Assembly (NCBI GenBank): GCA_030615715.1
Contig: JAUWYS010000004.1
Coordinates: 1 to 15,632, forward strand
Direction of reading: 5' to 3'
From: a bacterium
GTDB taxonomy: Bacteria > Patescibacteriota > Minisyncoccia > Minisyncoccales > CG1-02-41-26
Length of the DNA stretch: 15,632 nt
Positions 1,209 through 7,688 of the stretch are shown here, piece after piece. The notes under the pieces were generated by a model, which was given only the letters and a program-made list of their open reading frames with translations, searched no databases and had not been told where the DNA came from. A program made the translations under genes and the position numbers. Position 1 is the stretch's first letter. Every line of letters starts with the position of its first letter.

Positions 1209-4097
1209 TTACTTTTTGTCGACCTTTCTGATAGCTAAATTAAGTTCTTCATTATCAATTTTAAGTTTCTTTTCCTCAGCAGTAACCTCTTTTTCTGATA
1301 AACGGGTGAGGTCTTTAGTCTTGGTTTCTTTTTGAATCAAGGTTTTGTTTTTGAATAAAATTTTAGCTAATTTGGGACTGCCTGAATAATAGATTGAAAT
1401 TTTATCTTGGGGTGTTAAGCCGGCCTTCTTTCTTAGTGCTTGGAGATGACGGATAATTTCCCGAACCTGACCTTCCTCTTTCAATTCTGGGGTAATTTTT
1501 GTGTCTAATTTTGTTTCTGTTTTTCCAATTTTGTGAGTTATTTTTTTAACATTTATTTCTTCTTTTATTAATTCCAATAATTCTCTTTTGGATTTAGAAG
1601 AAGATAGAGAGGAAGATGAATATGATGACGAAGTTGATGAAGAAGAAGACAGTGAAGAAAGAGGTTGTTTTATCTTTTTTCTTGCTTTTGCCCTTTCTGC
1701 CAATGCTTTTGCAACAATCTCACGAACTTCTACCATTGCATTTTCTAATTCGTCATCAATCAATTTTTCATTTGCTTTGGGCCAGTCTGCCAAGTGAACA
1801 CTCTCTTTTTTTGTTAAATCCTGATAGATTTTCTCTGATAGAAACGGGATAAAGGGAGCAGTTAATTTGCTTAAATTCAAAAGAATAAATCCCAGGGTTG
1901 CTGTACTCTCTCTCAGTTCTTTTTCGCTGGCAGGTTTTTGAAACCGTTTTCTGGAGCGCCTGATATGCCATAAAGAGAGGTTCTCAACCACAAAATTTTC
2001 TATTTTCCTGGTGACGCCGGTAATATCATATTTTTCCAGGCCCCGGGTAACTTCCGAAATTAATCTATTGAAACAGGAAAGAATCCATTTGTCCAAAATA
2101 TCTTCGCTTTTATCGTGATAGTCAAATTTTTTTGTTAAATAGGTCTGGAAAAATAAATGGGAGTTCCAGAAAGTCATGATGAATCTTTTTAAAACGTTGT
2201 TTAAATCTTTTTCAGAGAAAAGTTTTGAGTCGCCAGGTTGATTCAAGGTGTAGAAATACCAACGAAGAGCATCAGCTCCATACTTATCAGTAATCTCCCA
2301 GGGGTCAACGATGTTTCCTTTGGATTTTGACATCTTCTCTCCTCGGGCATCTAAAACATGTCCCAAGCAAAGAACATTTTTGTAGGGAGTCCCCTTACAA
2401 AGTAAGGTAGCGATGGCTAAAAGGGTATAAAACCAACCTCTGGTCTGGTCAATGGCTTCAGCAATATAGTCAGCTGGATATTGTATCTTTTCATCAATCA
2501 GGTCTGAGTTTTCAAAAGGATAATGATACTGGCTGAAAGGCATAGCCCCTGAATCAAACCAAACATCAATGACTTGAGAAACACGCTTCATTTTCCCTCC
2601 ACATTTTTCACATTTAAGAATCACCTTATCAATGTAAGGACGGTGGAGGTCTTCTATCTTATCATTAGCAGTTTGTAGCTCTTCAATTTCCTTGATTGAA
2701 CCAAGACATCTTTGATAATCGCATTCTTGACACTGCCAAATGGGCAAAGGAGTTCCCCAATATCTCTCGCGAGAAAAAGCCCAATCTTTAACTTCTCGCA
2801 GCCACTCACCAAAACGACCTTGCTTAAGGTGAGAAGGAACCCAGTTTATCTTTTTATTATTAGTTAAGAGCTTCTCTCTCAAGGCAGTCATCTTAATGAA
2901 CCAGCTTTTTTTAGCGTAATAAATCAGCTTGGAATTACATCGCCAACAGAAGGGATAGTCATGTTCGTAAAGTTCTTCTCGGAACAAAAGTTTCTTTTTT
3001 TGGAGTTCTGTTATAATTTCTTTATTTAATTTCTCATCGGTAACACTCTGGCCTGCCCAGGGTTTAACCTCCTTGGTAAATTTACCTTCCTCATCAACAT
3101 TGACAATAACTGACAAATTATTTTTCTTGCCAATTTGCATATCATCTTCACCAAAAGCTGGAGCCATATGAACCAAACCCGTCCCTTCATCTCGAGAAAC
3201 AAAATCTCCAGCAATCACCGAATAGGCTTTTTTCTCTGGTTTAGCAAAATCAAAAAGTGGCTGGTACTCCATACCCAGTAATTCCTTTCCCTTAAATTCC
3301 TCAACAATCTTATATTCTTTGTCCAAAACATTCAATCTTCCTTTGGCTAAGATTAAAAATTCTTCAGCCACCTTTACTTTGACATAACTGAACCCTGGAT
3401 TAACTGCCACCGCCACGTTGCCCGGTAAAGTCCAGGGAGTAGTTGTCCAAACCAACAAATAAGTATTTTTCTCTCCTTTAACCGGGAGCTTTAGATACAA
3501 AGAAGGCTCTTTAATCTTTTTATATCCTTGAGCTACTTCGTGGCTTGAAAGAGTAGTGCCGCATCTCGGGCAGTAAGGAACAACCTTGAAATCCTGATAC
3601 AAAAGCCTCTTATCCCAAATTTGTTTAATAATCCACCAGAGTGTTTCCATGTATTCTTTGTCATAGGTGGTGTAGGGGTCATCCATATCGACCCAATAGG
3701 CAATTCTCTCGGTAATATCTCTAAAAAGTGGCAAGTATTTTTGGACATTTTTCCTGCATTCTTTGTTGAATTTTTCAATGCCAATTCTCTCAATGTCTTT
3801 TTTGGTTTTGAAGCCCAGGTTTTTCTCCACCTCAATTTCCACTGGCAAGCCGTGGGTGTCCCAGCCATTTTTTCTTTTGACATAAAAACCTTGCATGGTC
3901 TTGAAACGAGGAATGACATCTTTATAGATTCTAGCTAAAGTCATGTGAACGCCAGGTCGAGCATTAACCGTAATCGGTCCATCAAAAAAAATAAGTCTGG
4001 GACAGTTTTCTGTCTTTTTTAGGGTCTTTTCAAAAATCTTATTATCTTTCCAGAATTTTAGAATCTCTTTCTCAATTTTGGGGAATTCTGGAGTCAT
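1209..4097 (-). CDS. ileS: Isoleucyl-tRNA synthetase
   Basis: A 962-residue class I synthetase that charges tRNA-Ile. In order: the nucleotide-binding signature at residues 39-56, where the usual HIGH reads HMTL (51-54); WDTHGLPVEIEVEK at 79-92; a CPRCG cysteine pair at 176-180; the CP1 editing domain with WTTTPWTLPGNVAVAVNP from 217; a GTGLVHMAPAFGEDD editing motif; further cysteine pairs (CWRC, CQEC, CEKC); WFDSGAMPFSQ; KMSKS at 588-592; and a C-terminal anticodon-binding region. The length, the split HxxL signature and the sequence around it fit the eukaryote-like IleS subgroup. A serine-rich tract at 814-834 interrupts the C-terminal domain between KQPLSSL and LLELIKEE. The ATG overlaps the stop of the phosphatase gene as ATGA, indicating translational coupling. 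Confidence 0.96.
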   Translation of the reverse strand: MTPEFPKIEKEILKFWKDNKIFEKTLKKTENCPRLIFFDGPITVNARPGVHMTLARIYKDVIPRFKTMQGFYVKRKNGWDTHGLPVEIEVEKNLGFKTKKDIERIGIEKFNKECRKNVQKYLPLFRDITERIAYWVDMDDPYTTYDKEYMETLWWIIKQIWDKRLLYQDFKVVPYCPRCGTTLSSHEVAQGYKKIKEPSLYLKLPVKGEKNTYLLVWTTTPWTLPGNVAVAVNPGFSYVKVKVAEEFLILAKGRLNVLDKEYKIVEEFKGKELLGMEYQPLFDFAKPEKKAYSVIAGDFVSRDEGTGLVHMAPAFGEDDMQIGKKNNLSVIVNVDEEGKFTKEVKPWAGQSVTDEKLNKEIITELQKKKLLFREELYEHDYPFCWRCNSKLIYYAKKSWFIKMTALREKLLTNNKKINWVPSHLKQGRFGEWLREVKDWAFSRERYWGTPLPIWQCQECDYQRCLGSIKEIEELQTANDKIEDLHRPYIDKVILKCEKCGGKMKRVSQVIDVWFDSGAMPFSQYHYPFENSDLIDEKIQYPADYIAEAIDQTRGWFYTLLAIATLLCKGTPYKNVLCLGHVLDARGEKMSKSKGNIVDPWEITDKYGADALRWYFYTLNQPGDSKLFSEKDLNNVLKRFIMTFWNSHLFFQTYLTKKFDYHDKSEDILDKWILSCFNRLISEVTRGLEKYDITGVTRKIENFVVENLSLWHIRRSRKRFQKPASEKELRESTATLGFILLNLSKLTAPFIPFLSEKIYQDLTKKESVHLADWPKANEKLIDDELENAMVEVREIVAKALAERAKARKKIKQPLSSLSSSSSTSSSYSSSSLSSSKSKRELLELIKEEINVKKITHKIGKTETKLDTKITPELKEEGQVREIIRHLQALRKKAGLTPQDKISIYYSGSPKLAKILFKNKTLIQKETKTKDLTRLSEKEVTAEEKKLKIDNEELNLAIRKVDKK

Positions 4098-4658: not shown

Positions 4659-6347
4659 TTACATTTTTTCTGGAGCAGAAATGCCAAGGAGAGAAAGAGC
4701 ATTTTTTAATACTTGGGCAATCGCAGCCGTTAAAGCCAATCTAAATACTTTAAGCTCAGGAGTTTCGGCTTTAATAATTGGATGTAGGGTATAGAAAAGA
4801 TTGTATCTTTGGGCTAAACCAAAGATGAAATTACAAATCAAATTAGGAGAAAAATTCTTAGCTGCTTCTTCAATTACTTCAGGGAATTCGTAAATTATTC
4901 TCAAAATATCTTCTTCTTCTTTATTCAAGTCAATAGACTTTATCTTCTCATCCTTAACTTTATATTCAGCTTTTCTAAGTACACTTTGGCATCGAGCAAA
5001 GGTATATTGCAAATAGGGACCGGAGTTTCCCTTAAGATTTAAAATTTTATCCCAATCAAAGATAATATCTCCACTGTAATGCTGAGATAAATCGTTATAC
5101 TTTACAGCACCAATTCCTACTGCTTCCCCCACTTTCTCTTTTTCTTCTTTGGATAATCCTCTACCTGTCTCTGATTGTTCAATAATCTTTCTTGCTCTCT
5201 TAATTGCCTCTTTCAAAACTTCTTCTAAATGAATTGTCCTGCCTTTCCTGGTAGAAAGTTTTCCCTCTTTGAAACGAATGAGTCCATGAGCTACATGGAA
5301 AAACTTTTCTCTCTTTGCCCATCTTAAAAGTTCTACTGCCCAAAACAATTGTTTGAAATGAAGATACTGCTCAGCTCCAACTTCATAAAGGATTAAATCT
5401 GGTTTCCATTTTTTTAATCGGTATTTTATAGTGGCTAAATCTCGAGTTAAATAGGTGGTGGCTCCATCAGATTTCAAAATCATGGCTGGAGGTAACTTTT
5501 CTTGGGGGTATTTAATAATCAAGGCACCCTGACTTTTAGTAGCAATTTTTTTCTTAATTGCTTCATCAATGACTTTTTTTAGCATTCCTTGGTAAAAACT
5601 CTCTCCCAAAGCACAATCAATTTTTATTGCAAGGAGTTTATAGATTCTATCAAATTCTTTCAAACTTAAATCTACACAAGCTTGCCAAATTTCTTTAGCC
5701 TCCTTATCTCCTTTTTCTAATTTTTTAAACCAAGACCTTGCCTCTTCTCCCATCTTCGGAGTTTTCTCTGCTTCTTCATGAAATTTGACATACAATTTCT
5801 CTAATTCTTCAATGGTTAAGTCTTCCAAGATTTTATTTTTTTCCTTCCCTGCCTTGTCTTTTAATTTGTCTTTCTTTAATTGATAAATTAGTTCCCCAAA
5901 CTGGGTTCCCCAATCTCCCAGGTGATTATCTCCAATGCATTGCCAACCTAAAAATTCATAAATATTGTAAAGGGCTTGACCAATAATGGTTGAACGTAAG
6001 TGACCTATACCAAAGGGTTTGGCAATATTTGGCGCAGAATAATCTATTACTAACGTTTTTCCTTGTTCTGCTCCACCATATTTTTCTTTTTGTCTTAGAA
6101 TCTGAGTTATTGTATCAAGTAGAAATTCTTTGGTAAGAAAAAAGTTAATAAAACCGGGTCCAGCCACCTCAACTTTTTCAAACATGGGATTATCCTCAAT
6201 CTTTCTTGCAATTTCCTTAGCGTCAAGCTTAGCCTCCATAGCTATGTTAGTTGAGTAATCACCATGCCCAGCATCTGCTGGATGCTCTATCCTTGCTTCC
6301 TTGCCAGTAATTTCTCTGAGTAATTTTGCTATTTCATTTCTTATCAT
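4659..6347 (-). CDS. argS: Arginyl-tRNA synthetase
   Basis: A 562-residue class I synthetase that charges tRNA-Arg. The N-terminal Add1-like domain (about 1-95) includes GDYSTNIAM. The active site has IDYSAPNIAKPFGIGHLRST at 101-120, with the HIGH equivalent GIGH at 113-116, then GDNHLGDWGTQFG at 139-151. The KMSKS equivalent is KLSTRKG at 363-369, followed by RTIHLEEVL. The C-terminal DALR anticodon-binding domain ends in NALSLLGISAPEKM, a typical ArgS ending. The length is close to the normal 560-580. The ATG at 6347 is only 38 bases from the divergent smpB start. A weak TAAACT hexamer at 6360-6355 would place transcription start almost at the ATG. It heads the run phosphatase, ileS, unknown, trpF, recO. 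Confidence 0.97.
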   Translation of the reverse strand: MIRNEIAKLLREITGKEARIEHPADAGHGDYSTNIAMEAKLDAKEIARKIEDNPMFEKVEVAGPGFINFFLTKEFLLDTITQILRQKEKYGGAEQGKTLVIDYSAPNIAKPFGIGHLRSTIIGQALYNIYEFLGWQCIGDNHLGDWGTQFGELIYQLKKDKLKDKAGKEKNKILEDLTIEELEKLYVKFHEEAEKTPKMGEEARSWFKKLEKGDKEAKEIWQACVDLSLKEFDRIYKLLAIKIDCALGESFYQGMLKKVIDEAIKKKIATKSQGALIIKYPQEKLPPAMILKSDGATTYLTRDLATIKYRLKKWKPDLILYEVGAEQYLHFKQLFWAVELLRWAKREKFFHVAHGLIRFKEGKLSTRKGRTIHLEEVLKEAIKRARKIIEQSETGRGLSKEEKEKVGEAVGIGAVKYNDLSQHYSGDIIFDWDKILNLKGNSGPYLQYTFARCQSVLRKAEYKVKDEKIKSIDLNKEEEDILRIIYEFPEVIEEAAKNFSPNLICNFIFGLAQRYNLFYTLHPIIKAETPELKVFRLALTAAIAQVLKNALSLLGISAPEKM

Positions 6348-6370
6348 ATGTTTTAGTTTAGCTCATTTTT

Positions 6371-6379
6371 TGTTAGAAT
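6371..6379 (+). promoter_or_regulatory. Extended -10 promoter for smpB-ssrA, predicted leaderless
   Basis: The sequence TGTTAGAAT reads as an extended -10 element: TG, one base, then TAGAAT, five of six matches to TATAAT. No good -35 is visible, as is allowed for extended -10 promoters. A start seven bases past the hexamer would be at about 6386, the A of the smpB ATG, so the mRNA would be leaderless. No Shine-Dalgarno is present between the element and the ATG, which agrees. Confidence 0.5.
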
Positions 6380-6385
6380 TAAAGC

Positions 6386-6844
6386 ATGCGAACCATCATT
6401 GAAAATAAAAAAGCGCTGTTTAACTACCAGGTTTTGGAGAAATTTAAAGCTGGCATTGTTTTAATTGGCCAGGAGGTAAAATCAATTAAAACTGGGAAAA
6501 TAAGTTTAAGGGGCAGTTTTGTGGTACTCAAGGGAGAGGAAGTTTTTTTGATAGGAGCTAACATTCCTCCCTACCAACCCAAAAATGCTCCCAAAGATTA
6601 TCTTCCTCAGAGAAGCCGAAAGCTCCTTTTGAAAAAGGCGGAAATCAAGCATTTAATTGGTAAGGCCCGCCAGAAAGGCTTGACGATGGTGCCTTTAAGG
6701 GTGTATACTGATAAGGGTAAAATCAAGCTCGAGTTCGGGATTGCCCGCGGAAAAAAGAAATTTGACAAAAGAGAAAAAATCAAAAAAAGAGAAGTTGAGA
6801 GAGAAATACGGAAAGCTCTAAAAGGGGACGCACGGATTCGATAG
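6386..6844 (+). CDS. smpB: SsrA-binding protein SmpB
   Basis: A 152-residue SmpB, the partner that carries alanyl-tmRNA to ribosomes stalled on mRNAs lacking a stop codon. Family marks are ENKKALFNY at 6-14, FKAGIVLIGQEVKSIKTGKISLRGSF at 20-45, RSRKLLL, LIGKARQKGLTMVPLRVY, GIARGKKKFDKRE and a basic C-terminal tail. The tail lacks the Trp found in the E. coli protein. The start is fixed by the family N-terminus and by the promoter just upstream. The last six codons (GDARIR) and the TAG stop lie inside ssrA. The tmRNA 5' end at 6824 is exactly the first base of codon 147, so RNase P processing of a joint transcript would remove the stop codon and leave 146 whole codons. Confidence 0.96.
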   Translation: MRTIIENKKALFNYQVLEKFKAGIVLIGQEVKSIKTGKISLRGSFVVLKGEEVFLIGANIPPYQPKNAPKDYLPQRSRKLLLKKAEIKHLIGKARQKGLTMVPLRVYTDKGKIKLEFGIARGKKKFDKREKIKKREVEREIRKALKGDARIR

Positions 6845-7165
6845 GAGTTTCTCTGAAGCTAGCAAGCTGAGGTGTGGATCCTCATTAAACTTTCACAAAA
6901 AATAAGTGAGAACTTATTCGCTAAACCCGCTTACGCATTAGCGTAAAGCCATCCGAGTTGCTGATTCTCGATAAGTAACTTTGGGTGTCATATCATCGAG
7001 ATAGGTAGTTGCTCTACCCCAAACAATTACTGAAATCTATGGGGTTCGGACATCAGAAGTTTCGTTTGCTTCTTGTTCTGATGTTCTAAAAAATAAAGCA
7101 AACTAAGCTTGTAGATTTGCTTTCAGAAAATCTTCTACACGTGGGTTCAATTCCCACCGTCTCCA
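6824..7165 (+). ncRNA. ssrA: tmRNA (transfer-messenger RNA)
   Basis: One-piece tmRNA of about 342 bases before CCA addition. The acceptor stem pairs GGGGACG (6824-6830) with CGTCTCC (7158-7164), including the G3-U wobble that marks alanine identity. The discriminator is A7165. CCA is not encoded: CAG follows. The conserved GGATTCGA is at 6833-6840, and the T-arm GTGGG-TTCAATT-CCCAC is at 7141-7157. Pseudoknot 1 pairs TGAGG 6868-6872 with CCTCA 6880-6884 and TGTGGA 6873-6878 with TTCACA region 6892-6897. A second knot pairs 6966-6972 with 6995-7001 and 6980-6985 with 7018-7023. A third pairs 7050-7058 with 7076-7084 and 7064-7071 with 7096-7103. The linker between the second and third is short, so one of the usual four pseudoknots may be reduced or absent. 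Confidence 0.96.
6908..6946 (+). other. tmRNA tag reading frame, predicted tag (A)ENLFAKPAYALA
   Basis: The mRNA-like part of tmRNA. A frame ending GCA TTA GCG TAA at 6935-6946 gives the ...YALA end typical of degradation tags. The resume codon is placed at GAG 6908-6910 by analogy with E. coli: it lies 10 bases after pseudoknot 1, begins with G, and has T6903-A6904 at positions -5 and -4, as the E. coli U85-A86 pair does before its resume codon. The tag would be alanine from tmRNA plus 12 encoded residues. It ends in ALA rather than the commoner ALAA. The terminus is solid; the exact first codon is inferred. Confidence 0.8.
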
Positions 7166-7178
7166 CAGAATCAAAATT

Positions 7179-7688
7179 TTGCCAAAAAGAGTCTTTATCA
7201 ACAATCAAATAAGAGCTGACAAAGTAAGGGTAATTGACCCAGACGGCAAGCAGCTTGGGATTTTTAATTTACAAGAAGCCATTCAAAAAGCCAAAGAAGC
7301 AGGGTTAGACCTTATTTTAATAACTCAAAAAGTGCAACCTCCGATTTGTAAGATAATGGATTATGGGAAGTATCTCTACCGAGAGAGTAAAAAAGAAAGA
7401 AAGAAGAGAGCAACCAAGGCCGGCGAGTTAAAAAACGTTAGATTGAGTTTTAATATCTCAGAGCACGATCTGGAAACTCGAGTTAGGGCAGCCGAAAAAT
7501 TCTTAAAAAAGGGTTATCGGGTCAGGGTTGAAATGGTGCTCCGTGGAAGAGAAAGAGCCCTCAGCAATTTTTCTAAACAAAAAATAAATCACTTTTTGGA
7601 AGTTCTGAAGGAAACTGTGCCCATTAAAATTGAAAGAGAATTAAAAAGAGAGGGCAGAGGATTAACCATGATTATCGCTAAAGAATAA
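7179..7688 (+). CDS. infC: Translation initiation factor IF-3
   Basis: A 169-residue IF3, which binds the 30S subunit, prevents premature 50S joining and rejects non-AUG starts. The N-domain begins with INNQIRADKVRVIDPDGKQLG at about 7-27, followed by a basic linker (KKERKKRATKAGE). The C-domain contains ISEHDLETRVRAAEKFLKKGYRVRVEM and RGRE. The start is TTG at 7179, directly preceded by an in-frame ATT at 7176. No ATG or GTG lies in frame upstream before the tmRNA body. IF3 genes with AUU or other rare starts are known to be autoregulated because IF3 discriminates against them. No Shine-Dalgarno is visible; the 13 bases before the start follow directly on the tmRNA 3' end. rpmI starts three bases after the stop. 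Confidence 0.96.
   Translation: MPKRVFINNQIRADKVRVIDPDGKQLGIFNLQEAIQKAKEAGLDLILITQKVQPPICKIMDYGKYLYRESKKERKKRATKAGELKNVRLSFNISEHDLETRVRAAEKFLKKGYRVRVEMVLRGRERALSNFSKQKINHFLEVLKETVPIKIERELKREGRGLTMIIAKE

Follow-up and report, generated by a model that had tools for sequence, protein, structure and literature searches.

An smpB gene that closes inside its partner tmRNA gene, and a promoter-like element within smpB, in Patescibacteria

SmpB and tmRNA together rescue ribosomes on mRNAs without stop codons. In the patescibacterial DNA described here, the gene for the protein (smpB) runs into the gene for the RNA (ssrA) on the same strand. The 5′ ends of tmRNA are made by RNase P, as stated in the accessible part of PMC3985003. 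The locus thus raises a question: does the maturation of tmRNA remove the stop codon from its partner's message and, if so, is this geometry a selected control or a product of genome compaction? The first-pass annotation, made from the letters alone, had read the junction as a built-in feedback loop. The window, meaning the whole stretch of DNA analysed, is an entire 15.6-kb contig of a 330 kb assembly in 55 contigs; its features are given in Table 1. The named relatives with SmpB, among the best 80 of 427 matches, are Patescibacteria/Parcubacteria, including Nealsonbacteria, Gribaldobacteria, Wildermuthbacteria and Portnoybacteria.

Table 1. Features of the smpB-ssrA region (window coordinates)
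Feature	Position	Strand	Basis or detail
smpB	6386..6844	+	152 codons + TAG; ORF, Pfam PF01668
Promoter-like element, smpB codons 99-108, TTGACG-N18-TATACT	6680..6709	+	consensus scan and comparison
smpB/ssrA overlap	6824..6844	+	21 bases, phase 0
ssrA (tmRNA)	6824..7166 (ARAGORN); 6824..7168 (Rfam)	+	ARAGORN, Rfam RF00023
tmRNA acceptor 5′ strand GGGGACG	6824..6830	+	pairs 7/7 with 7158-7164 CGTCTCC
tmRNA tag frame, AKPAYALA + stop	6920..6946 (gene positions 97-123)	+	ARAGORN
infC (IF3)	7179..7688	+	directly downstream of ssrA

Both genes are strongly identified. The reading frame matches the SmpB profile at 174.7 bits, with residues 4-146 covering positions 1-142 of 143, and the Pfam match together with matches to solved SmpB chains shows the domain to be complete as far as residue 146; of the solved chains, 7ljp scores best and continues for three residues beyond the position aligned to K146. 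The Rfam tmRNA model is matched across its whole length (132.1 bits, E 4.8e-52), and ARAGORN identifies the tag AKPAYALA. Full pairing of the acceptor stem makes the tmRNA 5′ end secure. Its third pair is G-U (6826-7162), which is the rule for alanine tRNAs; 7164 is the last paired acceptor base and 7165 the discriminator A, and the CCA is incompletely encoded (ACAG). The first tmRNA nucleotide is the first base of smpB codon 147 and the smpB TAG (6842-6844) is tmRNA nucleotides 19-21, such that the last six codons (GDARIR) and the stop are also tmRNA sequence. As the SmpB domain match stops at residue 146, the GDARIR residues fall outside it. ARAGORN, Rfam, the ORF and Pfam confirm in full this geometry, which the first-pass annotation had described.

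An error of assembly or sequencing in the A/G run before 6824 might have created the overlap in this genome, given the repeated bases of the run AAAAGGGG and the fragmented assembly. This is very improbable: the acceptor pairing fixes the GGGG, and all three frames, read by eye, have their first stop inside the tmRNA, so that the genes overlap for any length of the A run. In addition, two genomes of the same family (G007, G013) have the same phase and two of the same genus (G001, G002) overlap by 8.

What would the overlap do to the smpB message? The RNase P protein (RnpA) is found in 18 of the 20 genomes examined, including the window's own, ClpP in all 20, and no terminator-like site was found in 6250-7250. 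Given the same-strand overlap, maturation of a full-length transcript by RNase P should thus give a non-stop smpB mRNA. The cut at 6823/6824 would keep the conserved domain and lose the stop, since the domain match ends at residue 146. Because the smpB frame closes only inside the tmRNA, each transcript with complete smpB and its stop carries tmRNA sequence. From the established action of RNase P, we infer that once the tmRNA is complete and folded, the cut would leave smpB without a stop codon; stop-terminated SmpB would then come mainly from ribosomes done before the cut, and later ribosomes would stall at the 3′ end, their products tagged or lost, amounting to a mild negative feedback.

The loop as originally proposed had a second arm, in which SmpB would be released only if rescue fails. 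That arm finds no known releaser. The RF-1 family has two matches per genome in the 20 genomes (one in G011), as expected for RF1 and RF2, and no ArfB-like third protein is evident among them, a possible exception being a 127-aa RF-1 frame in the window's own assembly (G000:C22). Likewise, RqcH-like matches in the 20 genomes cover about a quarter of the profile at most. NFACT_N matches, present in 13 of the 20, cover about 69-105 of 456 positions, with one exceeding the cut-off, and would represent proteins other than RqcH. With neither kind of releaser evident, a ribosome on the cut mRNA would depend on tmRNA-SmpB itself.

To place the junction among its relatives, we surveyed 147 genomes of the order, finding an SmpB match in 138 and a tmRNA over the cut-off in 137. 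After removal of nine genomes with no SmpB match, two with no tmRNA over the cut-off (G024, G088) and one with the tmRNA on the other strand (G135), 135 pairs were kept in which smpB lies upstream of the tmRNA on the same strand and contig. The smpB stop lies inside the tmRNA, or ends on its first base, in 45 of these pairs. Such recurrence, and the strong identification of both genes, rule out two doubtful genes overlapping by chance. Relatives with the stop upstream of ssrA had been named as a sign of mere read-through; they form the majority (90/135; gap 0-10 nt in 41, larger in 49), yet the overlap recurs in 21 of 45 families. The overlap is gained and lost repeatedly in evolution.

The sizes of the 45 overlaps are far from even: 38 are of 8 nt, two of 18, and one each of 30, 21, 19, 17 and 1. 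In the 8-nt class, present in 18 families, smpB stops at a UGA that forms part of the tmRNA acceptor strand (nucleotides 6-8); these tmRNAs start with GGGG[A/G]UGA (G140 has GGGAGUGA) and the predicted RNase P cut falls between codon positions 1 and 2. Across all overlaps the predicted cut is between positions 1 and 2 in 39 of 45 and between 2 and 3 in two. A cut on the codon edge, for which the first-pass annotation had asked whether it is constant among relatives, occurs in just four (the window's genome, G007, G013 and G029), and the codon edge as a design is rejected. Within the window's genus, G001 and G002 belong to the 8-nt class; the window's acceptor GGGGACG is without that UGA and smpB extends to the UAG at nucleotides 19-21.

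The phase bias has a simple origin. The UGA at nucleotides 6-8 is carried by 82 of the 135 tmRNAs, and the median distance from the tmRNA 5′ end to the first in-frame stop is shortest in phase 1 (8 nt), against 36 nt in phase 0 and 64 nt in phase 2. An smpB gene losing its own stop beside ssrA therefore ends cheaply mainly in phase 1, giving the bias without special selection. The geometry would thus probably stem from genome compaction, the tmRNA 5′ strand GGGGNUGA offering a ready-made stop in one frame; most overlapping relatives close on this stop, and the window's lineage, with ACG instead of UG, reads on to the next.

Outside the order, a phylum-wide sample of 136 genomes (three from the order itself) had a tmRNA over the cut-off in 121 and SmpB in 125. 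At the DNA level the comparison covers 20 near-adjacent loci, fetched because the smpB match ends at most 70 nt from the tmRNA as read from match tables, and 20 smpB genes not followed by ssrA. Three of the 20 loci overlap: L143 and L156 by 12 and L146 by 1. At L128 (genome G046) and L146 (genome G278) the smpB TAG and tmRNA nucleotide 1 have just the final G in common; the predicted cut there leaves an mRNA ending in TA, to which 3′ A addition could restore the stop. In mitochondria, coding sequences end in or at RNA genes, excision of the tRNAs that punctuate the transcript trims the stop, and A addition completes it. By comparison, only the TA|G junctions of G046 and L146 would be mendable in this way.

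The source of the tmRNA matters for the feedback. A consensus scan of the kilobase 6250-7250 picked out the promoter-like element TTGACG-N18-TATACT inside smpB, which matches 10 of 12 consensus positions and ends 114 nt before the tmRNA 5′ end; with three sites against 1.8 expected, the scan alone is weak. Comparison makes the case strong. In a scan of synonymous codon usage in 132 genes and 146 codon columns, leaving out fragments and genes with masked bases, the two most biased columns are codons 99 and 108, the former opening the -35 hexamer and the latter closing the -10. Leucine 99 is written TTG in 123 genes, TTA in one and CTT in one (G per codon 2.48; mean 0.336, sd 0.299). At codon 108, threonine is ACT in 101 of 102 genes and asparagine AAT in 12 of 12 (G per codon 1.42).

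The element follows the gene neighbourhood. With G023 excluded for masked bases, TTGAC plus TATAnT stands at the aligned site in 40 of 45 genes that overlap, in 63 of 69 with a gap of 0-60, in 16 of 19 with a gap of 61-400 and in 15 of 20 adjacent loci of other orders; it is absent from all 21 smpB genes without a following ssrA and from the one whose ssrA is 1196 nt distant. Of the 21 non-adjacent controls, 20 come from other orders, so relatedness is partly confounded with adjacency in this contrast; the within-order cases are G135 and G034. The exact form is absent from 15 of 134 own-order genes. Being equally frequent with and without overlap, the element is tied to adjacency and not to the overlap. 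A search at any position (TTGAC, 16-21 nt, TATA) gives the same picture: 121 of 134 own-order smpB genes have the motif, whereas 20 synonymous shuffles give 12.15 on average and never more than 19. Of the 20 adjacent loci from other orders, 17 have it (opposite strand: 1 of 20); it is in 0 of 21 non-adjacent genes, whose stretches are shorter. Exactly one motif lies between the smpB start and the tmRNA in 126 of 135 loci (122 in smpB, 4 in the gap) and none in nine. Two members of family f10 (G078, G120) have no internal copy and carry TTGACT-17-TATATT 15-20 nt before the tmRNA, in a wider gap. As a counter-case, G024 retains the motif, with no tmRNA above the cut-off found in that genome.

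The element is also visible in the protein. Among own-order SmpB proteins with a gap of at most 400, 123 of 133 carry Thr, Asn or Ser at residue 108, as do 17 of 20 from adjacent loci elsewhere; among non-adjacent proteins 2 of 21 do, Leu or Phe being commoner there (13/21). The two hexamers are conserved beyond coding need and tied to a downstream ssrA. Judging from this comparative signal, ssrA very probably has its own promoter within smpB, with transcription expected to start near 6716. A promoter directly upstream of the tmRNA was considered and rejected, as -35/-10 scores there are close to those of control positions inside smpB: with the -10 ending 4-12 nt before the tmRNA, the best score is 7.0 (controls 6.78) in the 45 overlapping loci, 6.91 (controls 6.66) for gaps of 0-60 (n=69) and 6.05 (controls 6.52) for larger gaps (n=21). 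No paper describing a promoter inside smpB was found by title or abstract start in the open-licence literature, and within the literature searched this element appears new.

A transcript starting within smpB can yield tmRNA, and a joint transcript is thus not required. The original proposal had derived a non-stop smpB mRNA from every joint transcript that gives tmRNA and had named a separate ssrA promoter as its undoing. For joint transcripts the first step is supported by the overlap, the lack of a terminator-like site, RnpA and ClpP; such transcripts are simply not needed for tmRNA. The separate promoter is predicted, but full-length smpB transcripts would still be expected to be cut. The predicted promoter also lends weight to a reading in which the overlap has no effect, with smpB translation nearly all done before the cut, tmRNA made from its own promoter and non-stop mRNA negligible. 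Since the acceptor stem can form only once its 3′ end, about 340 nt further on, has been made, ribosomes that follow the polymerase closely could finish first. Later ribosomes would nonetheless be free to read the cut mRNA, and the kilobase scanned offers no terminator-like site; we consider an overlap without effect quite improbable.

Is the overlap then selected, as an autoregulatory loop in which tmRNA maturation makes smpB mRNA non-stop and SmpB is tagged when rescue is active? As a control we used tRNA genes from 800 kb of two relatives and 30 further loci, with ORFs of at least 80 aa called mechanically. Same-strand upstream CDS-tRNA pairs overlap in 4 of 49 cases (3/28 in the 800 kb, 1/21 in the further loci), which rules out an overlap unique to smpB-ssrA. 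With relatedness ignored, the smpB-ssrA overlap is commoner (45/135 against 4/49, Fisher p 5e-4), also among pairs at most 10 nt apart (45/86 against 4/17, p 0.036, relatedness again ignored). In G087, ORFs end inside, or on the first base of, tRNA-Leu, tRNA-Gly and tRNA-Ile genes, the stop in the tRNA-Gly case being the D-loop TAG; at L200 the end of a protein-coding ORF runs into, or onto the first base of, a tRNA-Ala gene. RNase P would turn the mRNAs of these ORFs non-stop too.

We also placed both states on a FastTree SmpB tree of 133 rows, leaving out two contig-edge fragments (G097, G126); as the tree of one gene it is a weak test. The 8-nt state takes 32 changes against 33.2 in shuffles (72/200 as low), a scatter about as random that leaves it unsupported as an inherited clade marker. 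Overlap as such takes 31 against 37.4 (1/200 as low) and is somewhat clumped. The coming and going of the 8-nt state fits compaction plus easy stop capture better than strong selection. The excess over tRNA genes and the slight clumping mean that compaction alone is maybe not the whole story, and may leave room for selection.

Recurrence in many families, the excess over tRNA overlaps, the clumping and the presence of tag and ClpP all speak for a selected loop. It must contend with the random scatter of the 8-nt state, the 90 pairs that manage without overlap, a frame bias explained by stop positions in the tmRNA and a second arm with no evident backup releaser in 20 genomes. A selected loop is, on balance, unlikely, and selection for feedback is unproven. 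We judge the smpB-ssrA junction to be a compaction architecture with negative feedback as a likely side effect. The explanation we favour, with a probability of roughly 0.65, is that smpB and ssrA have been squeezed into one nested unit: a promoter within the smpB coding sequence, for which the comparative basis is strong, could supply tmRNA alone, and the cut would leave non-stop smpB mRNA and a mild feedback. A bolder extension of this favoured explanation would be a two-layer homeostat across Patescibacteria, in which the intragenic promoter sets tmRNA supply and dictates SmpB residue 108, matured tmRNA destroys its partner's message and the SmpB:tmRNA ratio is fixed by geometry; SmpB would then be made only in a short window before RNase P acts. 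We regard this extension as doubtful.

The logic of the feedback has precedents, though the first-pass annotation knew of none. For Carsonella, Hudson, Lau and Williams 2014 (PMC4131195), in the accessible part of their paper, call the smpB-ssrA overlap an interesting feedback situation that is not widespread, credit Mao et al. 2009 for it, and tally 250 CDS-upstream overlaps for 115,660 t(m)RNA genes. As at our locus, whose smpB stop also lies inside a same-strand ssrA, maturation should there make smpB mRNA non-stop and a substrate of its own product. According to the same text, the Carsonella overlap is present in half of the strains and was found nowhere else; here it is in nearly half of the families surveyed, mostly on one captured UGA and with a promoter-like element inside smpB. 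Carsonella SmpB lacks the C-terminal tail and central loop, whereas the domain here is complete; a lost tail is thus a trait of Carsonella and not of the overlap.

A second precedent is selB/tRNA-Sec, where, in the portion of Mukai 2021 available (PMC8124441), a protein gene likewise overlaps its partner RNA gene, and processing is proposed to leave the protein's own mRNA without a stop and the downstream mRNA without a leader. There, however, the entire tRNA gene is nested in the selB frame, and the loop stays open because the partner RNA is a different molecule from the rescue RNA. ArfA of E. coli and BrfA of B. subtilis, as presented in the accessible parts of PMC10107115, PMC11633108 and PMC4131195, also have mRNAs made non-stop by processing and expression that depends on trans-translation; they differ in that RNase III is described as cutting before the stop codon, and in that what is made is a backup rescue factor outside trans-translation. 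In Streptomyces ssrA lies beside smpB and most tmRNA comes from its own promoter, with a location inside smpB not stated in the available text (PMC2635970). The accessible part of PMC12320835 mentions smpB mRNA solely as an RNase R target, and those of PMC11915505 and PMC11633108 contain nothing on a smpB-ssrA overlap. No open-licence paper was found that brings together tmRNA, Patescibacteria and smpB. Within the literature searched, the spread of the overlap in Patescibacteria looks new; the feedback logic was already published.

The neighbourhood holds further features. The infC start lies about 10-14 nt past the tmRNA 3′ end, with in-frame ATT 7176 or ATC 7170 as possible non-canonical starts, so tmRNA 3′ processing would leave infC nearly leaderless; a ribosomal L20 gene follows from 7885. 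Of the 135 loci, some of them ending early, 93 have an IF3-like start motif at most 330 nt after the tmRNA. On the minus strand, 1209-4097 encodes an IleRS-like protein with a serine-rich low-complexity run, SSLSSSSSTSSSYSSSSLSSSKSK, near its C-terminal part.

With these results, a curiosity of half the Carsonella strains becomes a recurrent feature of a large bacterial group. The results also offer a simple route to overlap, in that a neighbouring gene can capture a stop codon in the tmRNA 5′ strand. The promoter-like signal in smpB, tied to adjacency and visible in the protein, would be a case of one stretch of DNA serving as both protein code and promoter. Two questions become testable: does the maturation of tmRNA restrict its partner protein, and by what means do ultra-small genomes separate overlapping outputs?
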